Source: a bacterium (GTDB lineage Bacteria; Cyanobacteriota; Vampirovibrionia; Gastranaerophilales; Gastranaerophilaceae). Taken from it: DNA of 64,000 nucleotides. The position numbers and the translations under genes were made by a program. The notes beneath the pieces were generated by a model. It saw only the letters and a list, made by a program, of their open reading frames with translations. It was not told the DNA's origin and made no database searches. Shown here in pieces: positions 3,269 through 56,961 of the stretch (positions are counted from its first letter, which is position 1; each line of letters opens with the position of its first letter). Location: the NCBI GenBank assembly GCA_017626055.1, contig JAGAJM010000014.1:1-64000 (forward strand), written 5' to 3'.

Positions 3269-6200
3269 TTATTCCGCCTTAATAATAACAATTGGAATCT
3301 TTTCTTCCATTGCTTTTCTTAAATACTCTTCAGGAATTGTATTGATATCATCTGTATAAAGAGCCGTAATTTTTGGGTTACTTACAAGAACTTCGTTGTG
3401 CGAGAACCCATTCATCAAGAAATTACCATCTTCATTATAACCAGCTTCTAGTAAAGCTTTGTATGCTTTTGCAAACTCAGGGTCAATTTGCTCTAAATTT
3501 TCAACAGTCATTGTTTGAGTACCTAATTGTTTTTTGATATTATCCATACGCTCTATGTATGCTTTATCAATTTCTTTCATTTGCTGGAATTCTGGTAATG
3601 CTTCAATTTCAGCATTTTGCACGCGTCTTAATTTAATAATTTCATCTTCAATTTGCTTCATTTCAGGCAATTCTCTTAATTGTTGATATTGTGCTTGCGT
3701 TAAAGCACCTTTACCCATTTTTTCTTGAATAAGAAGTTTACGTTTTGATTCTAAATCTCTAATTGCAGTATCATATTTTGAAATAATTGCATCTTTTTCA
3801 GCTGCAAAAGTTTTTGATAATGATTTATAATCAACACCTACCAAATTAGACTTCAAATTGTCAGAAATCATTGTTCTATGTAAATCTTTTGACCCTTTAT
3901 TACCATAAGCACTCAAATTTTGACCACCATAATATTCATTTAACATATTAGTAGTATTTTTACTCATAGAAAAAATATCTCTGCCATAACCAACATATTG
4001 ATGTTCATTTGCCACATCAAAAATAAATCCGTGATGGAATTCTTTAACTAATGCAGCTTTTCCATTAGTAACATAACTTGTACAAATTACTTTATCATCA
4101 GCAAAATCCTTAAATATTTCAAAGTTTGCAAAGTTTGCAGCTCTTGAACCTCCTGTTGTATAACCAGCTTCTGGAGTATGAATAAAGGCATAGAAATTAT
4201 CAATATCTTCTGAATTTACAATATTAACATCATATTTAACTCCATCACGATCCACAATTTGTTTTTTAGCATGTGCCATATAAGTTTCAGCAGTAGTTTG
4301 TGGAAGAACAAAATCTGTAGCTTTCATATCATCAATTTTTGATTTAATAGCTTTATCTAAATATCTTGATAAGCCATCTTTTTCTTTTGTTGAATATAAC
4401 ATTTGAGCAAGATCAAATGTATTTCCTTCTTTTAATCTAAATGCCATTCCATCAATAAATTCTTTACGCTCTGTTCTGCCAAACATATTTGAAGTTAAAC
4501 CTTTTTTAGTTGACATATATGCATCAATTGCATCTGAAGCTTCTACAATTTTATAAACTTTTTGAGCTTCTACATCTGAAATATTAAATTTTTTCGCAAT
4601 GAAATATGCATCAAAAGCAGCTTCTGAAGCTGAACCCGACATTTTATCTGTATTATGTAATAATGTAGCTAACATCAATGTTTTTTGATCACTTGGTGAT
4701 AAATTGTCAAATGCAGGATTTTGAACAATTTTTTGCATCGATTTAATCATCTTAACTGAATTTGCAGAATTATCGATTTGGTTAAATATTTCTGGCATAT
4801 CAGCAGATAATGTTTTTAACATTCTATTCAATTCTGGGATATCATTAGTTGTAACAAAATTAGAGTTTGTATATTCATCAACTGTTGATTTCATATTTTC
4901 AATTACTTCAATAGTTTTTACATCAGTAATATCCAAACTTGCTAAGTCTTTTGCCCTTGTATTAGGATATCCACCTAATTTGCCATCTTCAATTCTGAAA
5001 CCAAAGTAATCTTGAACTTTAGCTTGTTCCATTGGAGATAAATCTTTCATCATATTTTGAACTTTTGACACAAACTCTTCATGAGGCATTGTTAATTCAA
5101 TTTTTCTTAATCCAGACAAGTCCATTGTTTTTAATGAAGTTGCCATATCTTTTAAATTAGCATCAAAAGCTTGAACCCTTGCTGCTGATAATGGTTGGAA
5201 ATCTAATGATAAACTTTGAGTAACACCTCTTACAAGTTTTTCGTACTCCATATCATTTACTGGAATAAGGGGGATAATATCTTTAAGATTATTATCTGCT
5301 AAAATATTTTTATTTTTCAACATTGATAATAATAATTCTCTCTTTTCCATTTTTGACAATTCACATATGTTATTTTTACCCTTAACAGAATCAAAAGAAT
5401 TATATAAAATATAATCATTAATGCCTAATTTAGAAATTTGTTCAGCATCTAATACTTTATTCATTTGTTTAATCGTATCAATTGGCACTATATCCTTTGC
5501 CACAATTATAACCTGTGTAGGTACTAAACCTTCTTGCTTATAATTTGAATAAGTTTCTAGAACTAATTCCACATTATTTCTATTTGTAGATAATAATAAT
5601 TGAACCTTTTCATCTAAATCAAAATCTTTATCATAAACTAATGATTTCGCTAAATTAGTATTACCATAATTAATACTATTCAATAATACTTTAGCATCTT
5701 GAGCTGATATTTCATTATTATAAATAATATCTTTTGCAAATTTCGCATTTGCTTCTCTCACTGAAGACAACAACGCTGTAGAATCATCTATAGATAGTCC
5801 AAAATTTGAAATAACATCATCTGCAAATTCTTTATTATATTTATTTATTGAATCTAAAATTCTACAACTATCAAGCTTATTATAACCTTTTTCTAAATAT
5901 TTCGAAGCGAAATCCACATTATCTTTATTGATTGCAGCAGCATAAAATAACACTTGACTTGTTTTTAAATTTTTATCTGTACATAACTCATTAATAACAA
6001 ATTTAGCAGATTCTTCATCAACTATATTTGGTAAATAACTAGCCACCTCACTTCTTTGAATATTTTCATCATTCAATAAATATTCAACAAAAGGAATTTT
6101 ATAAGCAGGAGTATTCTCAAGTAATGTTTGAGCTATTTCCGGAGTTACATTATTATCCAAAATTAATCTATTTGCCAAAGATACATTCTCTTCATTTGTT

Positions 6201-8938
6201 CTACTCAAAATTACATTTACTTTATCTAAAGATACATCTGGAGTATCTATAATTGTTTTTATTAATGCAAAATTCCCATCATTAACTTGAGATAATAATT
6301 TTGTAATTTCCTCGTCTGTAAGTTCTTTAGATTTTATGATCTCAAACATTTGGGTTTTCGCATTTTGAACACTTGAAGAATCATCAGCTTTTATTACAGT
6401 ACTTAAATCAAATTCCTTAACTACACCAATTTCTTTGCGCAACTTCGCAATATAAGGTAATTCATATTTACAATTATATTTAACCAATAAAGTTTCTAAT
6501 TTATCCAAATATTCTGGAGTAGGATATATACCCTTATCGAACATTTCATCATAAATTCTTGAAACATCTTTTGAAAGAGCACTACGCATTTTAGATGGAG
6601 AATCCATATTTTGTTCTACAATAGCATCTAATTTTTCTTCAGGGGTTAAAATTCTTGAATTTGATACCTCTTCACTTCCTTTTTTAACTGAAACCTCACT
6701 CTCAACTTCTGGAGTCTTTTTAACTTCAGCATCAGCTTGTGGGTTTACTTCGACTTCTGCCTGTGGTTTTACTTCGACTTCAGCTTGTAGTTTAACCTCA
6801 ACTTGAGGTTTTGCTTCTACTTGAGGTTTAACCTCAACGTCTGGAGTAGATTTTGGAGCATTAACATCTGGTGCACCACCTTTAATATGACCTAATCTTG
6901 CAAGAGCCATGCCTGTTGCCAAATCAATAAACGCATCTGATGAACCATAATCATCACCAGCGATTTTTGTAATTCCATAAGAACCAGCAGCATTGATAAT
7001 TTCTTCAGCAAGTTCATTTGCAATAGCTTTATTTACTCCAAAAGCACTCATAAGTTTTGGAGCTAATTCATTTGCACCAACACCGACACCAGCAAATGAC
7101 ATATTCATCAATGTCTTTTTCATAACGGCTTTAGCGTCATCACCATTTGTTAAACCAACTGTAGCAGTCGCAACACCTGTTGTTGCCATTGATGAACCAA
7201 CTTTTGCGGCTTTTGATGCAATTTTAGAAGCCATGCCAGCACCTTGTTGGAATTTTGTAACTGCTGCAAATGCTTTTTCTGCTTTCGCTGCAGCATTAGC
7301 AACTTTAACAGCTTTTGTACCCCACTTAGCTGCACTTACTGCCATTTTTGCAGCTGCCATTTGACCAAGACCTGGAACAAATTGTAATGCAATTGTACCT
7401 GCAACTTCAAATACACCCTCTGTAACCATTTCAGTTACAACCATATTTTCATTGAATTGAGCAACATCTTTTGCAATATCACTTGTCCCAAACGCACTCT
7501 TATTCAACAATTCTAAATCTTTACCCATTTGGTCTAATGTTTTACCATTAGTTAAAGTTTGATATTCTGATTTGGAAGCTGATTTTGTTTCTTTCAAGAA
7601 ATGTAATAACATTTCACGCTTGTCAGCTTCTGTTTTAACTTCTTTACCTGTAACTGCACCATAATTTGCAATAATTGTATCTGCTATTTCATCATTAATT
7701 TGGAATTTTTCTTTAATTTCAGCTCTTAAAGTTGCATAATTCTTAGATTCTGAATTAGCTAGAATTCCATCTGTAACCTTAATTGTTGCATCCATTGCAT
7801 TTGCTTGTTGATATTTGCCTAATGCTACATCACGAGCGGCAATTTTATTTTTATCAAACTCAATACCAAATACTTGCTTATATCTTACTTTAAATTCTTC
7901 TTCTGTTTTTGCAGTAGCAAGAAGTTTAGCGGCTTTTGCATTAGCACCTAATTTCTTGTCCATATCTTCAACTGTTGTACATCCAAACCAACCACAAACA
8001 GTATCACCAACACTTGCAGCCCAACCATCTTCTTCTCTTGCGTCTTTATATTCTTTTTGTGCTTTAGTGTTTTGTTCGCTGAAATCTTTTGCAACAGTTT
8101 CGATTGCTTGTTTTTCAGTAATTTCACCGCCAGCATTTTGTTTTGCAATAATTGCACCACGTAAGAAGTCAATAGCTTTTTCCATATCTTTTGGATTTGT
8201 TCTTCTACCATGTGCATTAAGTTCTGTATTCATGCTGGTATTAAAGTCTTTGCGAGCTTTGTTGATATCTCCTTCAGATACTCCAGCTTCTCTTGCAGCT
8301 TTGCATAAAGTTTGCAATATTGATGTCAACATTACTCGTTGTTCTGCAGCTGAAGCTCCAGTTTCAGAAGTGATTGTATCAATAATTGAACTGTCACTCT
8401 TTTCTTCTTTTTCAAGATAGCTTTGATAACTGTCTAACATTTGTAAAACGTTTTTAGAATTTACATTTTTGTCCCAATAATTCTTCATTTTGATAACACT
8501 ATCACCCCAACTACCAGTGTTGTCATCAGCTATTCCATAGAAATTCTGAGCATGTTTATCTGCAGCTTTGCGAGTTTGCACTTGTTGTTGATACTTAGCA
8601 TCAGCTTTAAATTGTTCAGGATTTTCAACGTATTTGTCATTTAATACAGTACCATCATGCGCTACAACCCACTGTTTACCATTCTGATCAATACACAAAG
8701 AACGACCTTTTTCCAAGGATTTCAATTTAATCATTTGACGCTCAACAGGCTTACCATCTTTTCCTTTAAATTTTGCCGTTACCACACCTTCATACTCACC
8801 CTTTTCAATAACCCCATCCCCGTCTTTGTCAATTTGGTTGAAAATAGATTTTTTGACGTCAGAATCTTGTTGATTGATTCTAGCGCCAATCTTAAATTGA
8901 TTTAAATCTATTTGATTTTGCCCATTAATTTTCGTCAT
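3269..8938 (-). CDS. giant EF-hand and helical-repeat protein, unknown function
   Basis: I do not recognise this 1889-residue protein as a named family. In order it shows: an EF-hand-type calcium loop (DKDGDGVIEKGE, residues 37-48); a module with the motif IDTITSETG (about 125-260) that also occurs three times in the amidase at 52662-55316; an Ala/Gly-rich hydrophobic region (about 510-680); a Pro/Glu/Val/Lys linker of KPQVEV-type repeats (about 695-750); nine or so helical repeats of about 30 residues (875-1130); an HD-phosphohydrolase-like stretch with LLHNTDK near 1428, where HD has become HN; and a C-terminal coiled coil (about 1710-1780). There is no signal peptide. The start at 8938 is preferred over an ATG 15 codons upstream, because MTKINGQ begins the conserved-looking protein. 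Base composition matches the neighbours. Confidence 0.85.
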   Translation of the reverse strand: MTKINGQNQIDLNQFKIGARINQQDSDVKKSIFNQIDKDGDGVIEKGEYEGVVTAKFKGKDGKPVERQMIKLKSLEKGRSLCIDQNGKQWVVAHDGTVLNDKYVENPEQFKADAKYQQQVQTRKAADKHAQNFYGIADDNTGSWGDSVIKMKNYWDKNVNSKNVLQMLDSYQSYLEKEEKSDSSIIDTITSETGASAAEQRVMLTSILQTLCKAAREAGVSEGDINKARKDFNTSMNTELNAHGRRTNPKDMEKAIDFLRGAIIAKQNAGGEITEKQAIETVAKDFSEQNTKAQKEYKDAREEDGWAASVGDTVCGWFGCTTVEDMDKKLGANAKAAKLLATAKTEEEFKVRYKQVFGIEFDKNKIAARDVALGKYQQANAMDATIKVTDGILANSESKNYATLRAEIKEKFQINDEIADTIIANYGAVTGKEVKTEADKREMLLHFLKETKSASKSEYQTLTNGKTLDQMGKDLELLNKSAFGTSDIAKDVAQFNENMVVTEMVTEGVFEVAGTIALQFVPGLGQMAAAKMAVSAAKWGTKAVKVANAAAKAEKAFAAVTKFQQGAGMASKIASKAAKVGSSMATTGVATATVGLTNGDDAKAVMKKTLMNMSFAGVGVGANELAPKLMSAFGVNKAIANELAEEIINAAGSYGITKIAGDDYGSSDAFIDLATGMALARLGHIKGGAPDVNAPKSTPDVEVKPQVEAKPQVEVKLQAEVEVKPQAEVEVNPQADAEVKKTPEVESEVSVKKGSEEVSNSRILTPEEKLDAIVEQNMDSPSKMRSALSKDVSRIYDEMFDKGIYPTPEYLDKLETLLVKYNCKYELPYIAKLRKEIGVVKEFDLSTVIKADDSSSVQNAKTQMFEIIKSKELTDEEITKLLSQVNDGNFALIKTIIDTPDVSLDKVNVILSRTNEENVSLANRLILDNNVTPEIAQTLLENTPAYKIPFVEYLLNDENIQRSEVASYLPNIVDEESAKFVINELCTDKNLKTSQVLFYAAAINKDNVDFASKYLEKGYNKLDSCRILDSINKYNKEFADDVISNFGLSIDDSTALLSSVREANAKFAKDIIYNNEISAQDAKVLLNSINYGNTNLAKSLVYDKDFDLDEKVQLLLSTNRNNVELVLETYSNYKQEGLVPTQVIIVAKDIVPIDTIKQMNKVLDAEQISKLGINDYILYNSFDSVKGKNNICELSKMEKRELLLSMLKNKNILADNNLKDIIPLIPVNDMEYEKLVRGVTQSLSLDFQPLSAARVQAFDANLKDMATSLKTMDLSGLRKIELTMPHEEFVSKVQNMMKDLSPMEQAKVQDYFGFRIEDGKLGGYPNTRAKDLASLDITDVKTIEVIENMKSTVDEYTNSNFVTTNDIPELNRMLKTLSADMPEIFNQIDNSANSVKMIKSMQKIVQNPAFDNLSPSDQKTLMLATLLHNTDKMSGSASEAAFDAYFIAKKFNISDVEAQKVYKIVEASDAIDAYMSTKKGLTSNMFGRTERKEFIDGMAFRLKEGNTFDLAQMLYSTKEKDGLSRYLDKAIKSKIDDMKATDFVLPQTTAETYMAHAKKQIVDRDGVKYDVNIVNSEDIDNFYAFIHTPEAGYTTGGSRAANFANFEIFKDFADDKVICTSYVTNGKAALVKEFHHGFIFDVANEHQYVGYGRDIFSMSKNTTNMLNEYYGGQNLSAYGNKGSKDLHRTMISDNLKSNLVGVDYKSLSKTFAAEKDAIISKYDTAIRDLESKRKLLIQEKMGKGALTQAQYQQLRELPEMKQIEDEIIKLRRVQNAEIEALPEFQQMKEIDKAYIERMDNIKKQLGTQTMTVENLEQIDPEFAKAYKALLEAGYNEDGNFLMNGFSHNEVLVSNPKITALYTDDINTIPEEYLRKAMEEKIPIVIIKAE

Positions 8939-8971: not shown

Positions 8972-9014
8972 TTTACGGCACACTTAATCCAAAACTTAAA
9001 AACTTTTGGACAAG

Positions 9015-13774: not shown

Positions 13775-16700
13775 TTATAACTGTTTCAACATCCCTGAAC
13801 TTGCGGTTCTTGATGTATTATGTCTAGCACCATATACCATTCTTTGTTCTGGTATCATTTGTTTTAATATCTTACGACTTCCGTCATTCTGAGCGGAGCG
13901 AAGAATCTCATTACTTGTTCGAGATCCTTCGGTTTTCACCTCAGGATGACGACTTAACTGCTTAGCTGCTTCGCTTCCTATCTTCTTAGCCTCTTTTTTC
14001 AAGAATGGTTTGAATACTTTTTGGCTATCATCTTTATCCTTACCGATTGCCCAACGGAAACCTGCAGTTAAAGAAATACCATTACGTCCACCATTTTGAA
14101 TCATTGCTTGACCAAATGCCATGAAATTATCTTTCATACGTTTTTGAACACCAACACCATATTGAACATATGGTTTCATACTCATACTTGGTAATTTCAC
14201 ACCATTTGCAGTAGCACTTGAGTTATCCATCACATTCCACACCATACTTACGCCTAAATATGGTTGCCATCCGCCTTTAGTATTTCCGATAAGTTTTAAC
14301 CCTGGGGCTAATTGTAATGCGTGTAATGGGTCGTTATTAATTCTTACACCAGCAGCGTTTGTATAATCGAAAGTATTTACAAATGTGTATGATACAAGCA
14401 TTGATGGTTGAAGAATTACTTTACCTTCTTTAAATTCGAAGTTATAACCCATTTTATTACCAATACCAGCAAGTAACATTGCATAATCTTCATTACCATA
14501 CATATTTGTATTATTAGCCACACTAGCACCAGTAGATAATGTAGTTGCGTTGAAGAAATTACCTTTGTACAAGGTCATTGTTCCGCCTAATAAACCACCA
14601 TTTTGATATGAATCAACACCAGAATATCTTTGTGATGCACCATTATATCCAATATAGCCAGTAAATACTCTGTCCCAACCGCCTTTGATACTTTCTAACT
14701 CTGTATCAAAACCAACCAAAGTACCATAAGTGATATTACTTACTTTTGGACCATTATCCAAATTTACACTTTCAAATGTTGCGTAAGGTTTTACCCAAGC
14801 ACTTGCAGTTTCTTGTCTTGTAAATAATGGTGAGAATGTTCCAACATCTGTTGCATCACCTGTTGGAGATAGAGCATATTTATTTCTATCTCTAATTGCA
14901 ATACGTTCAAGATATGGAATATTCATAAAGTTATCTGCGTTTTGGAATGCGTAGTTGAATGTTGTTGACATTGTTGACATAGCACCCGCAGCACTAGAAA
15001 CAGATGAACCTAGAACCGCTGGGTTAAACGCATCTGATGGGTTACCTGGAGTTGTACCAGCTCCACCACCAGGAACAATCACAGGTATTTTATCCCCACG
15101 AGTGAACACAAAGTATCCACCTTCACCTTGTCCATAATCATTAGTGTTATCATAAACTGCATTATATTTATAAATAGGTGTGTAGAATGTAGTTTGTTCA
15201 GGGTGAGGCATTTCACCAAAATTAGCTTCTACATTATTCATCAAACCTGTTTCTGCAAAGTAAATAGCGGCTACATCTTGACCATCTTTCATATCAGAAA
15301 TCATATTAAGACCACTAACTACTAAATTACCCTCATTATAACCATTAAATATCTCGTCACTATCTGATAACGGTCTTTGTCCATAGGAATCTTGAACCTC
15401 AAATCTATCCATTACTTCGTTTTCAAGGTCAACATCACCATAAAATTTTGTATCTCCATTGATAGTTAAGTTGTATGGATTAGAAACTCCAACTTCATTA
15501 TTTATCATAGAAAATGATCCAGAGTTCAATGTCAAGAAATGATTATCTAAAACATTATCTCTCAATCCTAGATGTAGGTTAGCATTTGATAAATACACCC
15601 AAGTTGGACCACCATAAATATTGCTATCAAATTCTTCATCAAGAGATCCTGGTTGAGGAGCAATAGCATAAATATTATTATTTAATGTAATTTTACCAGT
15701 TTCATCCCCTGTAAAATGAACAGCACCACCATTTAAAACAACCGCATCATCTATTTGGATTGAAGCACCAGTATTTGCAATAAATTGAAGATTTGAGTAA
15801 TCATCAGCAAAAATAGCTTCATTACGTTTGCCATAAGAATCCTCAACATAGTTTCCACTAATTACTGATTTATAACCATTATTTGCAATGATATCCAAAT
15901 CTCTTTGGGTATAAATCGCACCACCTCTAGCATAAGAATTTTCACCCTCAGCTTTTGCATAGTTATTTATGAATGACGAATTTACAATAGCAGGATTATA
16001 CGAAGGTACTTCCATATATGTACTTGGAATATTCTCTAATGATAAAGCTGCCTCTCGATTAGAATAACCATTATAAATTGCACCACCTGATGCTCTACTC
16101 CAAGAATCACCTGTTGATAATGCATAGTTTCCACTAAATGTTCCTGAAATTGTTGTTGGCTTGACACGACTATCACTTGTTAAGAAAATTGCACCACCAT
16201 ACGCATCACTACCTTTTGCATAGTTTCCTGCAAAGTTACCAATCATATTACCATAATAACCAGTTTCAACTGCAATAGCACCACCCATAGCAGGACCATT
16301 ATTTGCTTGAGCATAGTTGTTAGAGAAATTTGCATTGATATCACCAATACTACCATCAACAGCGCCTATTGCCCCACCTTCTGCCCAATAACGATATGCC
16401 ATTACAGAGTTGTTTTTAAATTCACCTGAGATATTACCAATGTAACCATCATTAAGAATCGCACCACCATAGGCACTTTCGTCAGCTTCAACTCTGTTAC
16501 CATCAAATACAGTATTTTCAATAGAACCGATTGATGAATTATAATCATTAAATATCGCACCACCATTTGCAAAACCATAATCTAAATTATTAATAGCAGC
16601 ATTGTTTTTAAATGTTGAATTAGCGATTTTATTAATTATTGAACCATCATTATATATTGCACCACCCATAGCATATGGAGATTGCGTACGAGGAGTTATA

Positions 16701-18931: not shown

Positions 18932-19034
18932 ACCAAAAATCCTCACAATATTTCCATCATAATAGTTAATTTTACTATTATTTAACCCTAATATCCTCAT
19001 TCAATAGGTTGATTTTAACCTCAAACACCAATTA

Positions 19035-22000
19035 CTATTTACTTTTAATAAAAGCTGTTTTTTGATAAGGTGACATTTGCTTTAAAATTTTTACTGTTTT
19101 TAAATTTTTACAATCTTTTTGAACGTCTTTATATTGAGGATTGCCATATCCTAATGCCCATCTAAATCCTGCAGTTAAAGAAACACCATTTCTTCCACCG
19201 TTTTGAACCATAGCTTGACCAAATGCCATGAAATTATCTTTCATACGTTTTTGAACACCAACACCATATTGAACATATGGTTTAATACTCATACTCGGAA
19301 GTCTAACACCATCAGCAATAACATCAGTCTTACCCATAGCATTCCAAACCATACTTACACTCAAATATGGTTGCCAACCTGTTTTAGTATTTCCAATAAT
19401 TTTAACACATGGTGCAATTTGAAGTGCGTGCAATGACTCATTATCGACTCTAACACCTGCAGCATTAGTGTAATCAAAAGCATTTATAAATGTATAACTT
19501 AAAAGTAAAGATGGCTGTAATATACATTTACCCCCTTTAAATTCAAAATTATAACCAGTTTTGTTACCAACTCCAGAATACAACATAGCAAAATCTTCAC
19601 TACCATACATTGTTCGACTATCCGAAACGCTAGCTCCGACAGAAATTGTTGTAGCATTAAAGAAATTACCTTTATACAAGGTCATTGTTCCACCTAACAA
19701 ACCACCATTTTGATACGAATCAACACCAGAAAATCTTTGAGATGCACCATTATAACCAATATAACCAGTTAAAGCTCTATCCCAACCATTTCCCAATTGT
19801 TCAATTCTAGTATCAAAACCTATCAACGTTCCATAAGCTATATTACTAACACTAGGACCATTTTTTAATCCAACATTTTCAAATGTTGCATAAGATTTTA
19901 CCCAAGAACTACTATATTCATCATTGTTAAACAATGAAGCCTGTTGCTTACCAAAAGTTGAAATCGCATATTTATTCTCATCTCTAAACGCAATACGTTC
20001 ACGATAAGGCAAATTCATAAAATCAGAAGCATTTTTGAAAGAATAATTCATAGTCTGATTCATTGTACCTAACACCCCAACAGTAGCCACTACAGAAGAC
20101 GACAAAATCGCTGGGTTATAATCATTTACAACTTCTCCAGTTCCTCTTGAGAAAATAAAATCACCATTTGAATTATTATATTGAACACAATATTTATAAA
20201 TTGGGGCAAAAGCTGTAGTCACTTGCGTATCTTTTGATAACTCATCAAAACCGATATATTTCACACTATCTTTGAACCCATTAAAAGCAAAAGGAACAGA
20301 CACTGTTTCATTTATTGAATCAGAAAGCAAATTAATTTTATCTACATTAATGGACACCCCATTTTGAACAATTGTATTTTGAGGCAATCTGTCCATTTTT
20401 ACATTTGCCAAATCCGCATCTAAATCCAGCTTAAAATCACCCTTAATATTCAACGAATTCATAGTATGATGCTCTATGCTATCAGTGATTAGATTTAAGC
20501 GACCAGAATTTATAAGAAAATCTGAAGTTGCCAAAGCATTTGAATCTTTGACAAACAACGTAATATCACTCAATGATACATTTGCATTTTTAATCTGATT
20601 ATTTAAATTAACAAAACTATCAGAACTACCTTTAATCTCTACTTTGTATCCATTTTCACCAGCTATTGAATCATCTAGATTTATTTTTCCGCCATTAACA
20701 CTATTCAACGTCAAAGTTTTATCCTTATCAGCAATGAATATTGCATCAGCAGAACTCTCAGAAGAATTTCCTGAAATATCAATGGTAGTTGAATCCGCAG
20801 TAAGACTAACATCAGCAAGAGAATATATCGCAGAGCCGTTCACTTGTGTTGCAATATTATCTATCAATGAAACATTAGTTAGGTTTATAACAGCATTAGG
20901 ATTTGTTGCATCAATAACGGAACCTCGTTCACCACTTGCACCAGTAATTTTAATATTAGACACAAATAATTCAGTGTCATTTGACAGCTGGAACAAGCTA
21001 TGTCCTTGAGCATTAATTGTAGATGGCGTATCTTTTGACAAACCAATAATTTCAAATTTACCAGAAGCAGTTTCACCCAAATTAGCAGTAAGGTTGTAAT
21101 CATCTGGGGTTCTAAAAACAAAACTTCTCTGCTCAAACCCTAGCTTAGAATTTATTACCTTCAGACCATCAAAAATTGTACCATTGATTGTAATACTATC
21201 ATTAACAGTGTTTGTTGTTGATAACTCTATACCATCAGGAACAGTAACTATTTGATCATTATATATAACATTTTCGATATATGGAATCGTAATTATATTG
21301 TCTGATAATGCAAGTTTCAAACCAGCATTTTGAGTTTTCAAAAGTTGAACAGTTATAGGAGTTCCAGAATAAGAATTCAAACAATTTAATAACCCTATTT
21401 TAATAACACCAGATGATTCTTTTGTTGTTTTTATACTATCCCCAACTCCATTTATTAAATCAATATCAAAATTATAAACAGCAGTATCGTCAGATTTTAA
21501 AGTATAAAATTCACTTTCTCCAATTTTATTATCCACAAAATCAACAATCACATTTTCAACAGAAACATCAGCTTTTTGAATTTGATTAAACAAGCCAATC
21601 TTACCTGTAGAATCCCCTGTCAAATACACATTATAACCAGTTTGCCCATCAATATAATCATTAAAAATTATTTTACCATTATTAACGGCACTCAATGTTA
21701 AATTCAAATTATTTCCATCAACATATATAGCTTCATTTAACTTTTGCCCACCAACTTTAACATAGTTATCCGTAAATTCTGAAACTTTATTATCAGCAAT
21801 AATATTCAAGTTAGACTTTGTATATATAGCACCACCTCTTGCAACTCCTTTTGAATTAGTATTTTCATTATAGTTGCCAATAAATAATGAATTTATAATT
21901 CCACCCACTACATTATCATTTTCATCTTTTCGTCCAATGGTAACCCCAGAATCAATCATCAATGCGCCACCTTTTGACTCTTCACCACCAGCAAAAGTAT

Positions 22001-23270
22001 AGTTACCAATAAACTTGCCAGTTATATTACCTATAACAGAATTTGGATTTAAGTTAATAGCGCCACCATATGACTTTAAATTTAGAGATTTTGCATAGTT
22101 ACCTGTAAAATAATTAGCTATAATATCTCCAACAGAATAATTATTACCTACATAAATCGCACCACCTCTTGCTGGGTCATTAACCCCAATAGCATAATTA
22201 TTTTTAAAGTTTCCTTGTATTGCATTAGTAATATAACCTTCATTCTGAATTGCACCACCTTGCGCATGATTACCAGAAACGTAATTGTCTATAAAATCTC
22301 CTTTTATATTATTTATAGTGCCCTTGTCATTAAAAATCGCACCACCACGAACAAGTGAAGATGTTGAACGAATATAATTGCCTACATAATCACCATCAAT
22401 ATTACCAATTTGACCTCTGTAATTATATATCGCACCACCTTTACCCTCATTTACAGTAATCAATGAATTTTCCGTAAAATCACCACTAATTGACAAAGTT
22501 TGAGATGCATTATCTGTATAAATAGCTCCACCGTGAGCCGTTGTCGCAGTAATTCTATTACGTAAAAAATCGCCTTGAATATTTCCCATTGTTGAGTTTA
22601 CGCCATTAAATATAGCACCACCCTTACCAATTTTATCTACAGAATTTAAAATAATTTCATTTTCACTAAAATCCGCAGATATATCACCTATTGTTGAAGC
22701 ATTCGTATTCCAAATAACTCCACCTTGAGCTTCTTTATTACTTTCAATTATATTTTTTGAAAACAATGAATCTGTTATAGATAAAATTTTACCATTTACT
22801 TCATTTACTATCACACCACCATAAGTAGCACCCAAGGTTGAAGAAAGTTTATTCCTCAAAAATTGCCCACTTAATTTAGTAATTTCGGCACCTTTATTAT
22901 AAATAACAACACCTTTAATATCAGCAGTATCGTGTAAATATTTATTATCAGCAAAAGTTACATTATCAAAACTAGCTTTACCAGCAGACATTTTAACAAC
23001 TTGTCCAATTGAATTTTTTAAAGCAGTATTTTTTATATTAAGCGCAGCATCAACATTTGAAATAACAAAGCCAGAATAACCATTCAAATCTATTGTTGAT
23101 TTTTTATCACCATCAACAACACCATTTATATTCCATATCCCACTAACATTCCCTATATTTTGTTCAGCAGTATAAACAGAATCTGCAGAATTAAAATCAT
23201 AATCAGACACAACAGCACCATTAGTTGGAGTATTTAACCCAACTAATCCTAAAGCCAAATATATAGCCAA
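19035..23270 (-). CDS. autotransporter adhesin (paralog 2), start codon uncertain
   Basis: This is a type Va autotransporter of at least 1411 residues. It has about eleven GGA(I/V) repeats in the first 520 residues, a less repetitive beta-helix-like middle, and a C-terminal barrel (about 1065-1373) closely matching paralog 1. A 71-base stretch is identical between the genes (19213-19283 and 14106-14176). The start is odd. The frame stays open upstream to about 23390 but contains no ATG or GTG. The only canonical candidate is the TTG at 23270, which cuts into the signal peptide and has no ribosome binding site at proper distance. Upstream in-frame residues (ISKDTISKR) would restore the usual basic signal n-region, and AGAGG lies five bases before an in-frame ATC. 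The true start may be non-canonical or mutated. The gene may form an operon with paralog 1. Confidence 0.82.
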   Translation of the reverse strand: MAIYLALGLVGLNTPTNGAVVSDYDFNSADSVYTAEQNIGNVSGIWNINGVVDGDKKSTIDLNGYSGFVISNVDAALNIKNTALKNSIGQVVKMSAGKASFDNVTFADNKYLHDTADIKGVVIYNKGAEITKLSGQFLRNKLSSTLGATYGGVIVNEVNGKILSITDSLFSKNIIESNKEAQGGVIWNTNASTIGDISADFSENEIILNSVDKIGKGGAIFNGVNSTMGNIQGDFLRNRITATTAHGGAIYTDNASQTLSISGDFTENSLITVNEGKGGAIYNYRGQIGNIDGDYVGNYIRSTSSLVRGGAIFNDKGTINNIKGDFIDNYVSGNHAQGGAIQNEGYITNAIQGNFKNNYAIGVNDPARGGAIYVGNNYSVGDIIANYFTGNYAKSLNLKSYGGAINLNPNSVIGNITGKFIGNYTFAGGEESKGGALMIDSGVTIGRKDENDNVVGGIINSLFIGNYNENTNSKGVARGGAIYTKSNLNIIADNKVSEFTDNYVKVGGQKLNEAIYVDGNNLNLTLSAVNNGKIIFNDYIDGQTGYNVYLTGDSTGKIGLFNQIQKADVSVENVIVDFVDNKIGESEFYTLKSDDTAVYNFDIDLINGVGDSIKTTKESSGVIKIGLLNCLNSYSGTPITVQLLKTQNAGLKLALSDNIITIPYIENVIYNDQIVTVPDGIELSTTNTVNDSITINGTIFDGLKVINSKLGFEQRSFVFRTPDDYNLTANLGETASGKFEIIGLSKDTPSTINAQGHSLFQLSNDTELFVSNIKITGASGERGSVIDATNPNAVINLTNVSLIDNIATQVNGSAIYSLADVSLTADSTTIDISGNSSESSADAIFIADKDKTLTLNSVNGGKINLDDSIAGENGYKVEIKGSSDSFVNLNNQIKNANVSLSDITLFVKDSNALATSDFLINSGRLNLITDSIEHHTMNSLNIKGDFKLDLDADLANVKMDRLPQNTIVQNGVSINVDKINLLSDSINETVSVPFAFNGFKDSVKYIGFDELSKDTQVTTAFAPIYKYCVQYNNSNGDFIFSRGTGEVVNDYNPAILSSSVVATVGVLGTMNQTMNYSFKNASDFMNLPYRERIAFRDENKYAISTFGKQQASLFNNDEYSSSWVKSYATFENVGLKNGPSVSNIAYGTLIGFDTRIEQLGNGWDRALTGYIGYNGASQRFSGVDSYQNGGLLGGTMTLYKGNFFNATTISVGASVSDSRTMYGSEDFAMLYSGVGNKTGYNFEFKGGKCILQPSLLLSYTFINAFDYTNAAGVRVDNESLHALQIAPCVKIIGNTKTGWQPYLSVSMVWNAMGKTDVIADGVRLPSMSIKPYVQYGVGVQKRMKDNFMAFGQAMVQNGGRNGVSLTAGFRWALGYGNPQYKDVQKDCKNLKTVKILKQMSPYQKTAFIKSK

Positions 23271-51567: not shown

Positions 51568-52653
51568 TTATTCAGTTACATATTTAAGAGTTATTTTATC
51601 CCCAAAATAACTTTGAATATCTTTATTATACCCAACAATTTGAGCTTCAAAACTTTTGCCTTTTTCTTGACATTCAGCCCTTAAAAGTGCAACACCTTTA
51701 TCGTAAAGTGCTTGTGCAGTTGCAACATTCGATTGTGGAGCTTTACCAGAATACATTTTTGTCGCAATAGAAATATCAAATAATCTGCGTTTTGCAAGAC
51801 CACTCATTTCTTTTCCAGTGTTAGTTGATTTTATATTGGTAAATTTATTTATTGCAGCCTCATATTTACCATTTTTCAAACACCATGCAAGTCCTTCAGT
51901 ATCTTTGATAATTGCATTACCTTTATTAAATACCATATCTAATAGGGATTCTTTCATTGGTTGAGGCATTTTATCATAATTATTTTGTCCAATAATTGCT
52001 GCAATATTTTCTTCGGTTTCCAATAAATCACTTGCGAAAAGTTCACAAACTTCTGCATCTGATAAATTTAAGTCACCATATTTTTTTATTATTTCTTGTT
52101 TATCTTTATCATTTTGAATAGCGTGTCCAATACCAATAGTTTGAACTCCTGCTTTGTCAATATATGGAGTGTTATGGAATTTGTTATCAGGAGTATTAGG
52201 AGCATCTTCTGCTTTTTTCCACTGTTTCACAAATTCTTCACTCAATCCCATTGCTTTTGCAACATCTTTCAAATTTTTGACATTAACTATTTTACGTGCA
52301 GATGGAATATTAACACTTTGTCCAAGTTTTAATTTTGTATTTTCATTAAACCCAGGGTTAACTGAATACAACGCTTCTAAAGATACACCATATCTTCTTG
52401 AAATTTTGGACAAGGTATCACCAGCAGCAACTGTATGAATTTTTGGGGGTGATTTTTGAATATATTTTTCTCGTTCTATTTGAGTATCAGAAATTTCTTT
52501 GCCATACTTAATTTCACTAGAATTTTCTGTTTTTTGACCAGAAGTCATCTGAACAGGCTTTGCTGGAGTTGATTTTTTAGTTGTATCAACACTTGAGGCT
52601 TTTCCTAGAGAATCTGTTCTTTCTGTAAATATAGCTTTTAATTTATCTAACAT
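51568..52653 (-). CDS. LysM-domain lysozyme (GH24 type)
   Basis: This 361-residue peptidoglycan hydrolase has a Ser/Thr/Lys-rich start without a signal peptide. A LysM domain follows (about 72-117, HTVAAGDTLSKISRRYGVSLEALYSVNPGF), then a phage-lysozyme-like domain (about 140-330). The latter has YIDKAGVQTIGIGHA with the conserved G-x-TIG-x-GH motif. The likely catalytic Glu is in KKAEDAP. The ribosome binding site AAGG overlaps the stop codon of the amidase gene just upstream, so the two are co-translated. It probably cleaves the glycan strand next to the amidase cutting stems. Confidence 0.88.
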   Translation of the reverse strand: MLDKLKAIFTERTDSLGKASSVDTTKKSTPAKPVQMTSGQKTENSSEIKYGKEISDTQIEREKYIQKSPPKIHTVAAGDTLSKISRRYGVSLEALYSVNPGFNENTKLKLGQSVNIPSARKIVNVKNLKDVAKAMGLSEEFVKQWKKAEDAPNTPDNKFHNTPYIDKAGVQTIGIGHAIQNDKDKQEIIKKYGDLNLSDAEVCELFASDLLETEENIAAIIGQNNYDKMPQPMKESLLDMVFNKGNAIIKDTEGLAWCLKNGKYEAAINKFTNIKSTNTGKEMSGLAKRRLFDISIATKMYSGKAPQSNVATAQALYDKGVALLRAECQEKGKSFEAQIVGYNKDIQSYFGDKITLKYVTE

Positions 52654-52661
52654 ATTTTACC

Positions 52662-55316
52662 TTATTTTCGTTTAAAATATTCTTCAATACTACTGAATGT
52701 TGCAGAGATAAATTGATTTTGATAATCTGGATCAACCAATTTACCACTATCTGGACCTGTCATATAGTCAATTTCCAACAATACTGACGGGATACCTTGA
52801 CTTGCTCTTAATACATAACTATTTGTTGCAACCGCTGTTGTATCTTTCATCATAATATCATCTTGAGCACCCAAGTTTCTGTATAAAGTTTGTGCAAACA
52901 GAGAATCTCTTGAATCTCCTTCATTATAACAAATTACAGAACCTGTTGTTTCTGGTTTTCTACTTGAGTTACAATGCAAAGAGACAAACATTGTTTTGTC
53001 TGCACCAAACCTTGTTTTATATTTTTTCGTTAAATTTTCAACTGTATTATGCTTCGAGTTATCCATTACATCTACTCGACCTTGAAGAGTTACAACAGTA
53101 TAACCTTGTTTTCTAAGTCTTTGGATTAAATCTTCCGAATAATTTGTTGCAATATCAAATTCTTCAATTGCATAATATTCATTTGTACCATCATTTTTTG
53201 GTAAATATGAGAACGTACCCGCATCATAAGCTGCTGATGCAAATCCTCCATGACCAGTATTAACAATAATACATTTACCATTAGATTTACCAATTGGAGC
53301 AAGCTCTTTTATTTTTGGAGATTGATCAATATTACCATTTCTATCTAACGTTGGAGTTGGACGATTAATTGTTGAAACATCAACTGTTGCCCATCTTGCT
53401 TTTGCCAGCTCAATTCTTCTATCTTCTTCAGAAAGTGTTGGATCATTCTGAATTCTTTGTATCAAAACTTCTCTAAATGATGGATAATACTGACCAGTTC
53501 TAGAATCCGTTACACCTTGATAAAAGTTTCGTTCTCTATCACGTCTTGCATCTTTTAGAATTTGACGACCTTTTTGTTCAGCTTTTGTTTGACCTGCTGG
53601 AGGTAAATCTTTATCATAAGTTGGAGTGTAGCGAGTTTTCATATCATCACCACTTCCATTGATTAATCTGTCAATCATATTGTCAAGATTATCAGTTTTT
53701 ACAAAACCTGCTTTGTTAAACTGTTTATCAAGCTCAGCTACAAATTCTTGCCTGTACTCTTCTGTACCACAAGTTTGTTCAGACAAAGCATCGTAAATAT
53801 GCATAACTGCATCTTTTCTAAGTTGAGCATCGTCCATTGATTCACTTGTAATAGCTTCAATTAATGATTCTTTTGTTTTTAAAGAGTCATATTGCAAAAC
53901 AACTTCTAAAGCATTTTTAGGAGTAATCATATTTAAAAGAACTTGAAATTCTCTTTGATCAACTGCACCTGAAATGAAATTATCATCAATCATCTCTTCC
54001 ATTCTTGTTGCAATTTCTTTAGGATTTGCAGTCATATGTTCAATATATGTTTCAAGTGCCTTTGTATTCATTGGTAAAGTCGCATCTGTTTGTTCTTGCA
54101 ATTCTGCCTTAAACAAATCTCGAACTTTTTCAGGTGTGCCTAATTTATCAGCATAAGCATCAAAAATATGTTCAATTGCTTGTTGTCTAGCTTTAGGATC
54201 ACTAGAAGTTTCATCCGCAATTGCTTCGAAAATAGATTCACCCGTATTCAATTTATCATACGCAGCCATAACATCTGCCACATTATCTTTATCGATTAAA
54301 TCTAACACTTCATTAAAAGTATCAGTACCAACTGCACCTCTATTATCATCAACCTCTTTTTCTAATTGAGAAGCAATAATTTCAGGTGTACCAATCATTC
54401 TAAGAAGCATATCTTCCATACGTTCAGTATCCACCATGCCTGAATCCTCAAACCTTGCATCTAATTCAGCTTGGAATTTTGCCCTGTATTCAGGATCTGT
54501 CTTAGTAGCTTTTGCTAAGGCATCATAAATATGCATAACTGCAGCTTTTCTATCTTCAGGTTTACTACCTGTTTCACTTGTAATTGTGTTAATTAAACTT
54601 TCTTTTTTATTATCTGGATTGTCATTATATTTTAATAATACTTCAGTAACATTTTTTGAATTGATTTGCTCGATTAAAGCATCAAAATCTGGACGTCCTA
54701 CCGCTTTTGAATTATCATCCGCAAATTCATAAATTTTTTGTCCCAATTCAGCTGGAGTATAATCAGAATTCCATTTTCTTCTATTATCAGCAGCAGAAGT
54801 TGTTGCCGCTTTAGATGGATCTCTAACGACTTCTTGTTTTGGCGCTGAAGTTGTATCTTTTTTAGCTGTTGAATCAGGTTTTTGAGTTTCAACAGGTTTT
54901 GTTTCCGCTTTTTTTGCAGTATCTGCCGCTGGAGCTGGGGTTGTTGCTTGAGCAGGTGCAGGTGTTGTAACTTTAGCAGAAGTATTACCTTTATACTGAG
55001 CAGGTTTATTGATTACATAAAACTGCTCGCCACTTTTTACAGTATAATCACGCCATTTACTATGATCAATGCCATTTAAAATACAAAAAGCTTTCATATC
55101 CATTTCATTGGCAGTAACCGCAAGATTATATATACCTTTACCTTGAGCAGGCTGTGATTTTGCCAAATGAGCTTTCAAATCTTCAACAGAAATCCCTAAT
55201 TGTTCAGCTGCTTTTTGTAAAGTCTTTGCATCTGGAAATTTTCTTTCAGAAACAGTCGCAGAAACAGAGGTTGTTCCTTTTGCTGAACTTGCTCCATTTA
55301 CATTTGAAAATACCAT
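52662..55316 (-). CDS. N-acetylmuramoyl-L-alanine amidase with three helical modules
   Basis: This 884-residue protein begins with a diverged LysM-like part (about 20-110). A Pro/Ala/Thr linker with AQATTPAP repeats comes next. Three roughly 123-residue modules follow (about 187-305, 306-428, 428-553), each with a KNVxEVL...ESLIxxITSET...AVxHIxDAL core. An amidase_3 domain closes it (about 680-884). That domain has NTGHGG, IEEFD, SLHCNS and PSVLLEIDYMT, holding the zinc ligands and catalytic Glu. Amidase_3 enzymes remove stem peptides from peptidoglycan. There is no signal peptide. Start 55316 has GGAG eight bases upstream; an ATG nine codons earlier does not. The same module occurs once in the giant protein at 3269-8938. 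Confidence 0.9.
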   Translation of the reverse strand: MVFSNVNGASSAKGTTSVSATVSERKFPDAKTLQKAAEQLGISVEDLKAHLAKSQPAQGKGIYNLAVTANEMDMKAFCILNGIDHSKWRDYTVKSGEQFYVINKPAQYKGNTSAKVTTPAPAQATTPAPAADTAKKAETKPVETQKPDSTAKKDTTSAPKQEVVRDPSKAATTSAADNRRKWNSDYTPAELGQKIYEFADDNSKAVGRPDFDALIEQINSKNVTEVLLKYNDNPDNKKESLINTITSETGSKPEDRKAAVMHIYDALAKATKTDPEYRAKFQAELDARFEDSGMVDTERMEDMLLRMIGTPEIIASQLEKEVDDNRGAVGTDTFNEVLDLIDKDNVADVMAAYDKLNTGESIFEAIADETSSDPKARQQAIEHIFDAYADKLGTPEKVRDLFKAELQEQTDATLPMNTKALETYIEHMTANPKEIATRMEEMIDDNFISGAVDQREFQVLLNMITPKNALEVVLQYDSLKTKESLIEAITSESMDDAQLRKDAVMHIYDALSEQTCGTEEYRQEFVAELDKQFNKAGFVKTDNLDNMIDRLINGSGDDMKTRYTPTYDKDLPPAGQTKAEQKGRQILKDARRDRERNFYQGVTDSRTGQYYPSFREVLIQRIQNDPTLSEEDRRIELAKARWATVDVSTINRPTPTLDRNGNIDQSPKIKELAPIGKSNGKCIIVNTGHGGFASAAYDAGTFSYLPKNDGTNEYYAIEEFDIATNYSEDLIQRLRKQGYTVVTLQGRVDVMDNSKHNTVENLTKKYKTRFGADKTMFVSLHCNSSRKPETTGSVICYNEGDSRDSLFAQTLYRNLGAQDDIMMKDTTAVATNSYVLRASQGIPSVLLEIDYMTGPDSGKLVDPDYQNQFISATFSSIEEYFKRK

Positions 55317-55342
55317 TTTACTTTCTCCATTAAAAGTACACA

Positions 55343-55401
55343 CATAACAAATATCGGCATTACCAAAGATAAACTTTAATAATACCGATACAAATGTTAT
55401 G
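55343..55401. repeat. long imperfect palindrome before the modular amidase gene
   Basis: A stem of 16 base pairs (ATCGGTATTATTAAAG with CTTTGGTAATGCCGAT, several G-U pairs) has a TTTAT loop. Outer arms CATAAC/GTTATG pair as well. It lies between two minus-strand amidase genes and lacks a T run, so it may be a leader structure or a weak terminator. Confidence 0.6.
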
Positions 55402-55419
55402 AAAATTTACAATCTAAAC

Positions 55420-56961
55420 TTAGACGCCAAAATACTCTTCAATTGAATCAGCAACTGCTTTCATTGTATTTTGTCTAAATGAAGATGAGTCAATATTTTT
55501 CAAATCATTTGGATTAGACTGATATCCCATTTCTAACAAGATAGATGGAATTGATGCAGTATTTCTCAAAATACCTAAACCACTGTGTTGAGATTGAGTA
55601 TCAGCCTTCACTGAACAGTTATCAAACTTCTCGAACCTTTTATCAACTTTTTCTGCTAATTTTTTATCAGTAGAAACATAATAGAATACATCCAGACCTT
55701 CTGGCCTTGAAGAACCCGCCGCATTACAATGGATACTGATTAACATATGCGGTTTAAATTTAGCTTTTGCATCACAAACTTGTTTTGCTTTACCACCAGT
55801 ATAAATAACAGTAGCTCCACGAGATGTCAATTCTTTGATTAATTCATCTGCAAAGTTTCTATTTTTATACCATTCATAAATAGTCTTACCATTTGCATCA
55901 TCAGCGTGAGTTCCTGGGTCAAACTTTTTACCAGAACCCCACCCATGACCTGCGTTGACCATAATTGTTTTTCCTTTTAAATCACCATTTTTATTTGTTG
56001 GGTTAAATTTGATAACTTCAGCTTTTACTGAGCCATCTGCACCGATAGGAATCAATGGTTTTTTACCACCAGTTGCAACTTTTTCACCAGGTTTGGCGGT
56101 TACATAACCACAACTTGGAACTTTGTAATAACCTGTTTTTGAGTCTTGTACCCTTGTACTGCCATCACTTGTTGCAGAACCAGAGGCTGCAGCTTTAGTA
56201 CCAAAGATATATAATTTTTCATTTGCCTTTGGTTCATAATTTTTAGGAAACCCATTTAGTTCCATAATTTCAGATTTAGTCATACCATTTGAATTAGCCA
56301 AAATCCAGCTCCAACCTTTACCTGCAGGAACAGTTAATGTCGGAACATTTTTTATGACTTGTCCAATACCAAGATTTGAACTTTTCAAACCTGTACGTTT
56401 TTTAAAATCATTAACATTCATGTTGAATCTATCAGCAATAGCATATAACGTATCATCTTTTTTAACAGTATATTGACCTTTTGCTCTATCTGAAGCTTCG
56501 TCAGAAGCTACTGCAGTAGTTGAAGATGTAGAAGAAGCCCCAGATGTTGAAGCACTTGGGTTTGCTTTTTTAATTTCTTCTGCGGTAAAAGCTCTAAAAA
56601 ATTGTTCTCCAGGTTGTGGAACATATTTTTCACTTATATCATTCAATTTGCAAAAATCTTTAAGACTCATACCTGCCGATTTTGCAAGAGCTGTTAAACC
56701 TTGACCTTGTTTACATTTTACAGTTTTGAGACCTGTCAACTCTTCTTTTGCAGATAATGAAGATGTTGATCTACCAATCAATTTCATGAATGTTTTATAG
56801 TTATCAATACCAAAACGCATTGCAATCGTAGAAAGAGTTTCTTTAGGTCTTACTCGATAACGACCTTTTTTTCTTGCATCTACAATTAAATCTTCTTCTG
56901 TTTGCGGTTTATTTGCAGGTTGCATCGCATACGATGATACACCAGAAATTCTTTCTACCAT
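55420..56961 (-). CDS. multi-LysM N-acetylmuramoyl-L-alanine amidase
   Basis: This 513-residue protein has several LysM or LysM-like repeats: RYRVRPKETLSTIAMRFGI (about 34-80), GQGLTALAKSAGMSLKDFC (about 88-130), QYTVKKDDTLYAIADRFNM (about 165-205), and a diverged fourth (about 210-250). A C-terminal amidase_3 domain (about 335-513) carries NAGHGWGSG, IYEWYKNRNF, LISIHCNA and PSILLEMGY. LysM anchors it to glycan strands. No signal peptide is visible, as in the two neighbouring hydrolases. TAGGAG precedes the ATG at 56961. An exact inverted repeat (57045-57060) lies about 90 bases upstream. Confidence 0.93.
   Translation of the reverse strand: MVERISGVSSYAMQPANKPQTEEDLIVDARKKGRYRVRPKETLSTIAMRFGIDNYKTFMKLIGRSTSSLSAKEELTGLKTVKCKQGQGLTALAKSAGMSLKDFCKLNDISEKYVPQPGEQFFRAFTAEEIKKANPSASTSGASSTSSTTAVASDEASDRAKGQYTVKKDDTLYAIADRFNMNVNDFKKRTGLKSSNLGIGQVIKNVPTLTVPAGKGWSWILANSNGMTKSEIMELNGFPKNYEPKANEKLYIFGTKAAASGSATSDGSTRVQDSKTGYYKVPSCGYVTAKPGEKVATGGKKPLIPIGADGSVKAEVIKFNPTNKNGDLKGKTIMVNAGHGWGSGKKFDPGTHADDANGKTIYEWYKNRNFADELIKELTSRGATVIYTGGKAKQVCDAKAKFKPHMLISIHCNAAGSSRPEGLDVFYYVSTDKKLAEKVDKRFEKFDNCSVKADTQSQHSGLGILRNTASIPSILLEMGYQSNPNDLKNIDSSSFRQNTMKAVADSIEEYFGV

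Follow-up and report, generated by a model that had tools for sequence, protein, structure and literature searches.

Signal-peptide-less wall hydrolases with a sigma-28-like promoter as putative substrates of a flagellar-type type III secretion system in a Gastranaerophilaceae bacterium

Flagellar type III secretion systems (T3SSs) have been described to export non-flagellar proteins via N-terminal sequences (PMC2764114). Such substrates include Cia and FspA of Campylobacter jejuni and YplA of Yersinia, which use a flagellar-type gate, lack a Sec signal, carry an N-terminal export sequence and are linked to sigma-28/FlgM (PMC2764114). In the present study we analyzed 64,000 nucleotides (nt) of a Gastranaerophilaceae genome (GCA_017626055.1; this whole stretch, part of contig C4 of the 1.87 Mb assembly, is referred to as the window). 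It contains a cassette that encodes a GH24 lysozyme and a pair of Amidase_3 proteins, which likewise lack a Sec signal and would share the remaining features. With moderate confidence we propose that a flagellar-type T3SS exports both amidases and the lysozyme as late-class substrates without signal peptide and that sigma-28 turns on the amidase-lysozyme operon. The systems of Campylobacter and Yersinia include a hook and a filament, whereas no gene of hook or FlgK size turned up here, and the cargo differs as well, as it would consist of wall hydrolases with annexin-like repeats.

FlgJ opens or trims the peptidoglycan for the flagellar rod. Like the cassette enzymes, FlgJ and rod-associated lytic transglycosylases are muralytic, lack a Sec signal and are tied to a flagellar-type T3SS, and one such enzyme is conserved in the order. 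However, the cassette belongs to other families (Amidase_3 and GH24), forms a separate operon with a sigma-28-like promoter and has a patchy distribution within the genus. Fusions of annexins with toxin domains are also known from bacteria, and there, as here, annexin-like repeats are joined to enzyme and toxin domains (Kodavali 2014, PMC3894181). The text of that paper has 0 occurrences of Melainabacteria and cyanobacteria, and the passages covered show no amidase fusion (PMC3894181). The annexin similarity of our proteins is remote, with the Pfam Annexin cut-off unreached. Di Rienzi et al. reported for the gut genome MEL.A1 a flagellar remnant that lacks filament, cap and junction as well as the L/P rings, which was read as ongoing genome reduction (PMC3787301). 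In contrast, the machine described here is conserved across the genus and represents a distinct second system that is also found in most flagellate relatives. In the literature on flagella, secretion and effectors of Gastranaerophilales, Melainabacteria and Vampirovibrionia, no such regulon was found in the titles and abstract openings covered, a coverage from which subscription journals were mostly absent. Each ingredient is known and the combination appears to be new.

All calls were made from the sequence, using a list of open reading frames (ORFs), Pfam profile searches with family cut-offs, structure predictions and a comparison with relatives. The ORF list and Pfam confirmed the tandem of three hydrolases, two from the Amidase_3 family and one from GH24, that an initial annotation of the window had described (aa, amino acids):

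51568..52653, minus strand: 361-aa LysM and GH24 lysozyme, 8 nt downstream of the 884-aa amidase, no signal peptide
52662..55316, minus strand: 884-aa amidase, start ATG 55316, with an S/T/N-rich N-terminus, three annexin-like repeats and a C-terminal Amidase_3 domain, no signal peptide
55420..56961, minus strand: 513-aa amidase with four LysM stretches and a C-terminal Amidase_3 domain, no signal peptide (ORF list, Pfam, hydrophobicity)

The lysozyme matched PF00959 with 50.5 bits (cut-off 22.3) and has one LysM, whereas the 884-aa and 513-aa amidases matched PF01520 with 65.5 and 91.5 bits (cut-off 27), the latter in addition to its four LysM stretches. Besides the profile scores, Amidase_3 membership was borne out by structural matches (Z 17-21.5) and by intact metal ligands, which we take to be H688, E718, H780 and E847; these residues are invariant in 13/13 aligned cassette amidases. 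Likewise, GH24 membership was borne out by the PF00959 score above the cut-off together with E149, D166 and T172, presumably the E-D-T triad of GH24, which are invariant in 12/12 aligned cassette lysozymes. The ratio of non-synonymous to synonymous substitutions (dN/dS) was 0.10-0.20 against the nearest relative, which indicates purifying selection on the cassette genes. Some details of the initial annotation had to be adjusted. LysM or linker regions had been assigned to all three proteins, and Pfam found LysM in the 361-aa and 513-aa proteins, while the 884-aa protein has no Pfam LysM and carries three annexin-like repeats instead. Moreover, the first amidase and the lysozyme had been called translationally coupled; the close pair is formed by the 884-aa amidase and the lysozyme, and with a gap of 8 nt their coupling is plausible.

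The reported lack of a Sec or Tat signal was confirmed. We determined the highest Kyte-Doolittle mean over 11 residues within the first 45 residues, and this peak reached 0.23-1.29 in 13 cassette lysozymes and 0.07-0.97 in 15 cassette amidases, compared with 1.76-3.03 in 7 signal-peptide-bearing hydrolases from the same group. Two further Amidase_3 proteins of the source genome do have signal peptides and therefore the lack is a property of the cassette and not of the genome. In genus-mates the cassette is syntenic and none of its proteins has a signal peptide; other amidases and lysozymes of the group have one. The start of the long amidase is most likely ATG 55316 (884 aa, MVFSNVNG), with GGAG immediately upstream. 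A hydrophobic stretch lies farther upstream, and no ATG, GTG or TTG occurs in the frame ahead of GTG 55343, which is itself positioned downstream of the promoter-like site described below. In-frame upstream extensions comprised 0-11 codons in 12/13 lysozymes (35 codons in the relative L112) and 4-9 codons in 9/15 amidases, with 17-30 partly hydrophobic codons in the other six. Mis-called starts that conceal a signal peptide were thus rejected, given the mostly short extensions and the missing usable start before the long amidase, and no upstream start encoding a signal peptide, which according to the initial annotation would have overturned its proposal, was found for the cassette proteins. 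The stretch upstream of the 884-aa amidase is better read as regulatory, since it offers no start before GTG 55343, contains a promoter-like site and hardly diverges: the 103-nt spacer between the 513-aa and 884-aa amidases shows 2 differences to L112, the nearest relative, compared with 37% at synonymous sites (36-41% in the three genes).

The published sigma-28 consensus is TAAAGTTT-n11-GCCGATAA (PMC2859248, PMC7286023). In the window, similar sites precede both amidases and a third protein:

55351..55378, minus strand: sigma-28-like promoter shared by the 884-aa amidase and the lysozyme, TAAAGTTT-n12-GCCGATAT, 34 nt ahead of the start codon
57001..57028, minus strand: weaker sigma-28-like site ahead of the 513-aa amidase, TAAAGTTC-n12-GTCGTTTA, 39 nt to the start codon, 13/16 positions
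8972..8999, minus strand: sigma-28-like promoter of the 1889-aa protein, TTAAGTTT-n12-GCCGTAAA, 33 nt ahead of ATG 8938
3269..8938, minus strand: 1889-aa protein, start ATG 8938 (MTKINGQ), without signal peptide, with a weak EF-hand and one annexin-like repeat; candidate co-regulated substrate

In every genome read, the amidase gene has a match 32-39 nt ahead of its start which agrees with the consensus at 12-16 of 16 positions. A scan of 310,506 bases of the source genome identified three sites with a score of at least 15/16, located ahead of the genes for the 884-aa amidase and the 1889-aa protein and ahead of L092:7517. All three are intergenic and ahead of a start codon, and the controls yielded 0-1 such sites in each of eight shuffles and 1 in the reversed sequence. 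Upstream scores of at least 13 were found for 14/15 cassette amidases and 8/12 annexin-like-repeat proteins compared with 6/247 background genes drawn only from the examined source-genome stretches (for the repeat proteins, which were 12 out of 46 repeat matches listed, Fisher p = 3e-9). The amidase count does not stand for 15 independent events because the amidases are orthologues; it excludes those truncated at contig ends (L048, L107, L110), and the source genome and L112 entered twice each. No such score was observed for 7 signal-peptide hydrolases and 6 T3SS structural starts. Sigma-28-like regulation of the 884-aa amidase-lysozyme operon is well supported, and sigma-28 itself would be the factor that recognizes these sites.

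Within window positions 55345-55400 and in the amidase upstream regions of five relatives (L037, L038, L039, L041, L109) the sigma-28-like site sits inside an inverted repeat, behind which a T-rich run follows. Its arms vary between genomes yet stay complementary by eye, as if the promoter overlapped with a terminator belonging to the gene upstream. Moreover, L083:5413-6468 and L092:7517-9670 of the source genome encode proteins of unknown family with a common N-terminus (MGxAASQAR...ARK..EY), which are candidates for T3SS substrates or for components of the machine outside the cell.

The second feature that connects the 884-aa amidase with other proteins is a repeat unit of about 115 residues:

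54393..54737, minus strand: annexin-like repeat 1 of the 884-aa amidase, repeat profile E 2.0e-46
54030..54368, minus strand: annexin-like repeat 2 of the 884-aa amidase, repeat profile E 6.2e-43
53661..54005, minus strand: annexin-like repeat 3 of the 884-aa amidase, repeat profile E 1.3e-44
8162..8545, minus strand: annexin-like repeat of the 1889-aa protein, repeat profile E 4.3e-35

A profile search detected this repeat in 18/40 genomes, all within the genus. Another carrier in the source genome is a 408-aa protein that has a glycine-zipper C-terminus. Carriers in genus-mates contain an ADP-ribosyltransferase exoenzyme domain (PF03496, 46.6 bits, cut-off 23.4) or calpain-like protease domains (PF00648, two above the cut-off); others are EF-hand/LysM giants, and one (L235) has a weak transglycosylase-like region of 14.2 bits, below the Pfam cut-off of 21.3. 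The repeat proteins differ from one another over most of their length, and no clear Pfam family was found for the C-terminus of the 1889-aa protein. A further C-terminus (L230) that looked calpain-like by eye was discarded, as it had no match in Pfam or among solved structures. The repeat region of the 884-aa amidase was predicted with a pLDDT of 87.6 and a pTM of 0.82, and all 50 structural matches listed for this model were annexins or annexin fusions, with modest Z (best 8.9). The best Foldseek match had an E of 0.095, and phmmer with one member of the repeat family matched annexins at E 0.0035. The repeat profile matched no annexin among the sequences of solved structures. We named the repeats annexin-like because the Pfam Annexin cut-off (PF00191, 25) was not reached: three repeat proteins scored 13.8-14.2 bits, and the 884-aa amidase gave no match at E 0.1. 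Three repeat proteins (L229:6754-7980 of the source genome, L236 and L237) have the N-terminal motif MG[MV]TNFGGDTQ.FT in common, and of these only the source-genome copy ends in a glycine zipper.

The initial annotation proposed to look for a secretion machine elsewhere in the genome. The type IV route was not supported, as the VirB4 family PF03135 was found in 0/40 genomes including the source, with a positive Caulobacter control. Instead, the source genome encodes the export apparatus of a flagellar-type T3SS (FlhA, FlhB, FliP, FliQ, FliR, FliI, FliH and FliF). FliI/SctN is located on C4, the contig of the window (554 bits, cut-off 379.5), FliE, FliF/SctJ, FliH/SctL and FlhA/SctV on C10 (L083), and FliO, FliP, FliQ, FliR and FliMN on C23 (L092/L093). 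FlhB (L105) also lies on C23, adjoined by a FliA/WhiG-like sigma-factor candidate with 79.5 bits, which stays below the cut-off of 189.6. FlgB, FlgC and two FlgF/G-like rod proteins are found on C20 (L104) and an orthologue of the rod-type transglycosylase on C19. FlhA-family proteins were present in 40/40 genomes (25 from the genus and 15 others) and fall into two types. A high-scoring FlhA (E ~1e-265) occurred in 13/15 genomes from outside the genus and in 0/25 within it, whereas the second type (E about 1e-187 to 1e-218) occurred in 25/25 genus genomes and 13/15 others. FlhA, FlhB and FliF of the source genome share 74, 65 and 50% identity with the second set of a flagellate relative, compared with 39 and 38% for FlhA and FlhB against the first set of the same relative. 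In four flagellate relatives this second set forms an operon of FlgF/G-like, FlgB, FlgC, a signal-peptide-less transglycosylase, FliE, FliF, FliG-like, FliH and FlhA. No hook- or FlgK-sized rod-family frame was found in the 25 genus genomes (1-3 matches each, at most 252 aa; hook- and flagellin-specific models were not part of the search). In flagellate relatives there are 4-9 rod-family matches, whose frames reach 561 aa. Since the rod-family matches of the genus are small, its hook and junction proteins appear to be missing. Besides, L085:10323-11798 of the source genome encodes a 491-aa protein restricted to the C-terminal portion of FlhA (FHIPEP positions 309-652), and similar frames of about 480-520 aa occur in the other genomes searched for FlhA.

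Taken together, the flagellar-type T3SS seems to be retained as basal body and rod without hook and filament. A sigma-28 (FliA-type) factor would activate the amidase-lysozyme operon and further signal-peptide-less annexin-like-repeat proteins, and the N-terminus rather than a Sec or Tat signal would direct them through the export gate. Beyond the inner membrane, LysM and perhaps the annexin-like modules may anchor the enzymes to wall and membrane, where they would cut peptidoglycan, most likely as effectors. T3SS export fits best since there is no signal peptide, the promoter is of the late-flagellar class, the repeat module is common with effector-like proteins and the machine has no recognizable hook genes. 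A precedent exists within the order, namely the transglycosylase of the rod operon in four flagellate relatives with its orthologue in the source genome. Among the three options raised in the initial annotation (a dedicated secretion route, use against other cells or release by lysis), the dedicated route was strengthened and is best supported, by the flagellar-type T3SS genes and the sigma-28-type promoter common with other candidate substrates. Use against other cells is compatible with our data; neighbouring bacteria, the own wall and the host environment are candidate targets. More tentatively, and with less than even confidence, one may go further and regard the second flagellar-type basal body, conserved across the order with rod but no hook or filament, as repurposed for the secretion of effectors. 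In this reading sigma-28 would be the effector sigma factor, the annexin-like repeat a common effector module and the cassette the wall-attacking arm against neighbouring bacteria.

Several observations weigh against T3SS export under sigma-28 control. The scanned stretches were picked around T3SS and hydrolase genes and not at random, and at scores of 13 and 14 the 310-kb scan was no better than shuffles (89 vs 72-99 and 9 vs 3-8 sites). Therefore, an isolated site of lower score, like the one ahead of the 513-aa amidase (13/16), weighs little on its own. In the window itself, 16 sites with at most 3 mismatches compare with 11.1 expected, and the spacer comprises 12 nt in most sites but 11 in the consensus. 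The repeat proteins L229, L236 and L237 score 10-11 and L232 scores 12, and a sigma-28-like site was found in 0/6 rod transglycosylases and 0/5 other signal-peptide-less hydrolases. In addition, the N-terminus of the lysozyme is amphipathic, unlike that of the amidases. The presence of T3SS and cassette is not tightly co-varying, given 40/40 genomes for the former and 15/36 genus genomes for the cassette-type lysozyme.

The most serious alternative shares the regulon and the T3SS export but assigns the enzymes to the own peptidoglycan, which they would open or trim around a rod-only machine. We consider this unlikely. In its favour, the signal-peptide-less transglycosylase of the rod operon of sister families is kept in the source genome, and LysM domains bind the wall. 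However, the same transglycosylase persists in the genus, so that this role is already filled, and it has no sigma-28-like site, in contrast to the cassette. Furthermore, the cassette-type lysozyme is missing from 21/36 genus genomes while the machine is present in all 25 genus genomes searched. From the absence of the transglycosylase beside flgC in genus-mates we had suspected that the cassette replaces a lost rod enzyme; this idea was dropped because the orthologue is present on C19.

Among 59 relatives including the source genome, the cassette-type lysozyme was found in 15/36 genus genomes and 0/23 others (E below 1e-60). In the 12 genomes where amidase and lysozyme were both read, their gap is 2-15 nt, and each time they are preceded by a UPRTase gene. 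Most relatives carry a single amidase copy, whereas two are present in the source genome and in L112 (89% identical). Another genome (L108) has amidase and lysozyme naturally fused to a single 897-aa protein, which suggests that both function in one compartment. A scan of a public genome collection returned 40 loci, of which 37 were clear relatives at 31-89% identity; where a lineage was named, these were all Melainabacteria, Gastranaerophilales or Cyanobacteria bins, except for a Fusobacterium sp. CAG:439 record. The named relatives are gut Gastranaerophilales, therefore the parallel to the predator Vampirovibrio drawn in the initial annotation shrinks to a link at class level.

A further alternative is a domesticated endolysin pair, which would stay in the cytosol and act only upon lysis of the cell or a sibling or in programmed lysis. 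GH24 and LysM/Amidase_3 are typical endolysin folds, phage endolysins equally lack a signal peptide, and PHROGs labels two of the proteins as endolysin, the lysozyme at 9.1e-18 and the 513-aa amidase at 2.1e-27. Nevertheless, such an origin and role is quite improbable, as the scan of a viral collection gave a single distant match (32%) and UPRTase and conserved housekeeping genes flank the cassette in every genome read. No holin family or phage gene was recognized among the few neighbours covered, for which no systematic search with holin models was made, and the phage-tail-like sheath PF04984 is absent from the source genome and present in 7/40 genomes, with the type VI sheath family outside this search. 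Unlike phage endolysins, the cassette moreover has its own sigma-28-like promoter and annexin-like repeats in one protein. Another export route (a type I, VI or VII system or vesicles) or a cytosolic role, with the sigma-28-like sites marking a motility or surface regulon only, is very doubtful: type I, VI and VII systems lay outside the searches of the source genome and the genus-mate G006 has by eye a type I exporter beside T3SS genes, but gut Melainabacteria were reported without type I system (Di Rienzi 2013, PMC3787301) and VirB4 is missing from all 40 genomes.

The lineage concerned comprises gut relatives of cyanobacteria and is a sister group to them. Filament-less flagellar gene sets in these abundant but rarely cultured gut bacteria have been interpreted as decay (PMC3787301). 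Here, all genus genomes searched retain the machine, and the promoter signature points to its likely cargo, whereby the purpose of a filament-less flagellum becomes directly testable. The result is a list of candidate effectors for a common gut lineage, comprising wall hydrolases, an ADP-ribosyltransferase and calpain-like proteases, and possibly an annexin-like module that adds to those of bacterial secreted enzymes.

The initial annotation suggested looking for shared N-terminal features in four starts, of which three (MVFSNVNG, MVERISG and MTKINGQ) fit a loose motif. This motif, drafted after viewing the sequences, is enriched in the amidases (9/13) relative to background proteins (12/259) and occurs in 5/12 repeat proteins. 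A lineage-wide FxG/FxA export motif was rejected, since a simple pattern was not enriched (12/203 in residues 1-45 vs 8-10 in inner windows). Some proteins (L035:11035-13965, L036:3189 and 9730, L085:11806, L229:4500), one of which resembles nucleoside diphosphate kinase, have N/Q/S-rich N-termini that end in a NFQA-, TFTG- or SFKG-like motif; an overall enrichment of this combination was not demonstrated. Genus-mates encode more signal-peptide-less wall hydrolases, namely L069, L079 and L076 (GH24) and L075 and L080 (LysM and Amidase_3). By eye, L069, L079, L075 and L080 have a common N-terminal domain (KGC.F...) that is distinct from the cassette. Finally, window positions 13775-19000 and 19035-23270 encode two adjoining giant proteins, both rich in GGAIYN-type repeats, whose C-terminal regions resemble each other and look autotransporter-like.

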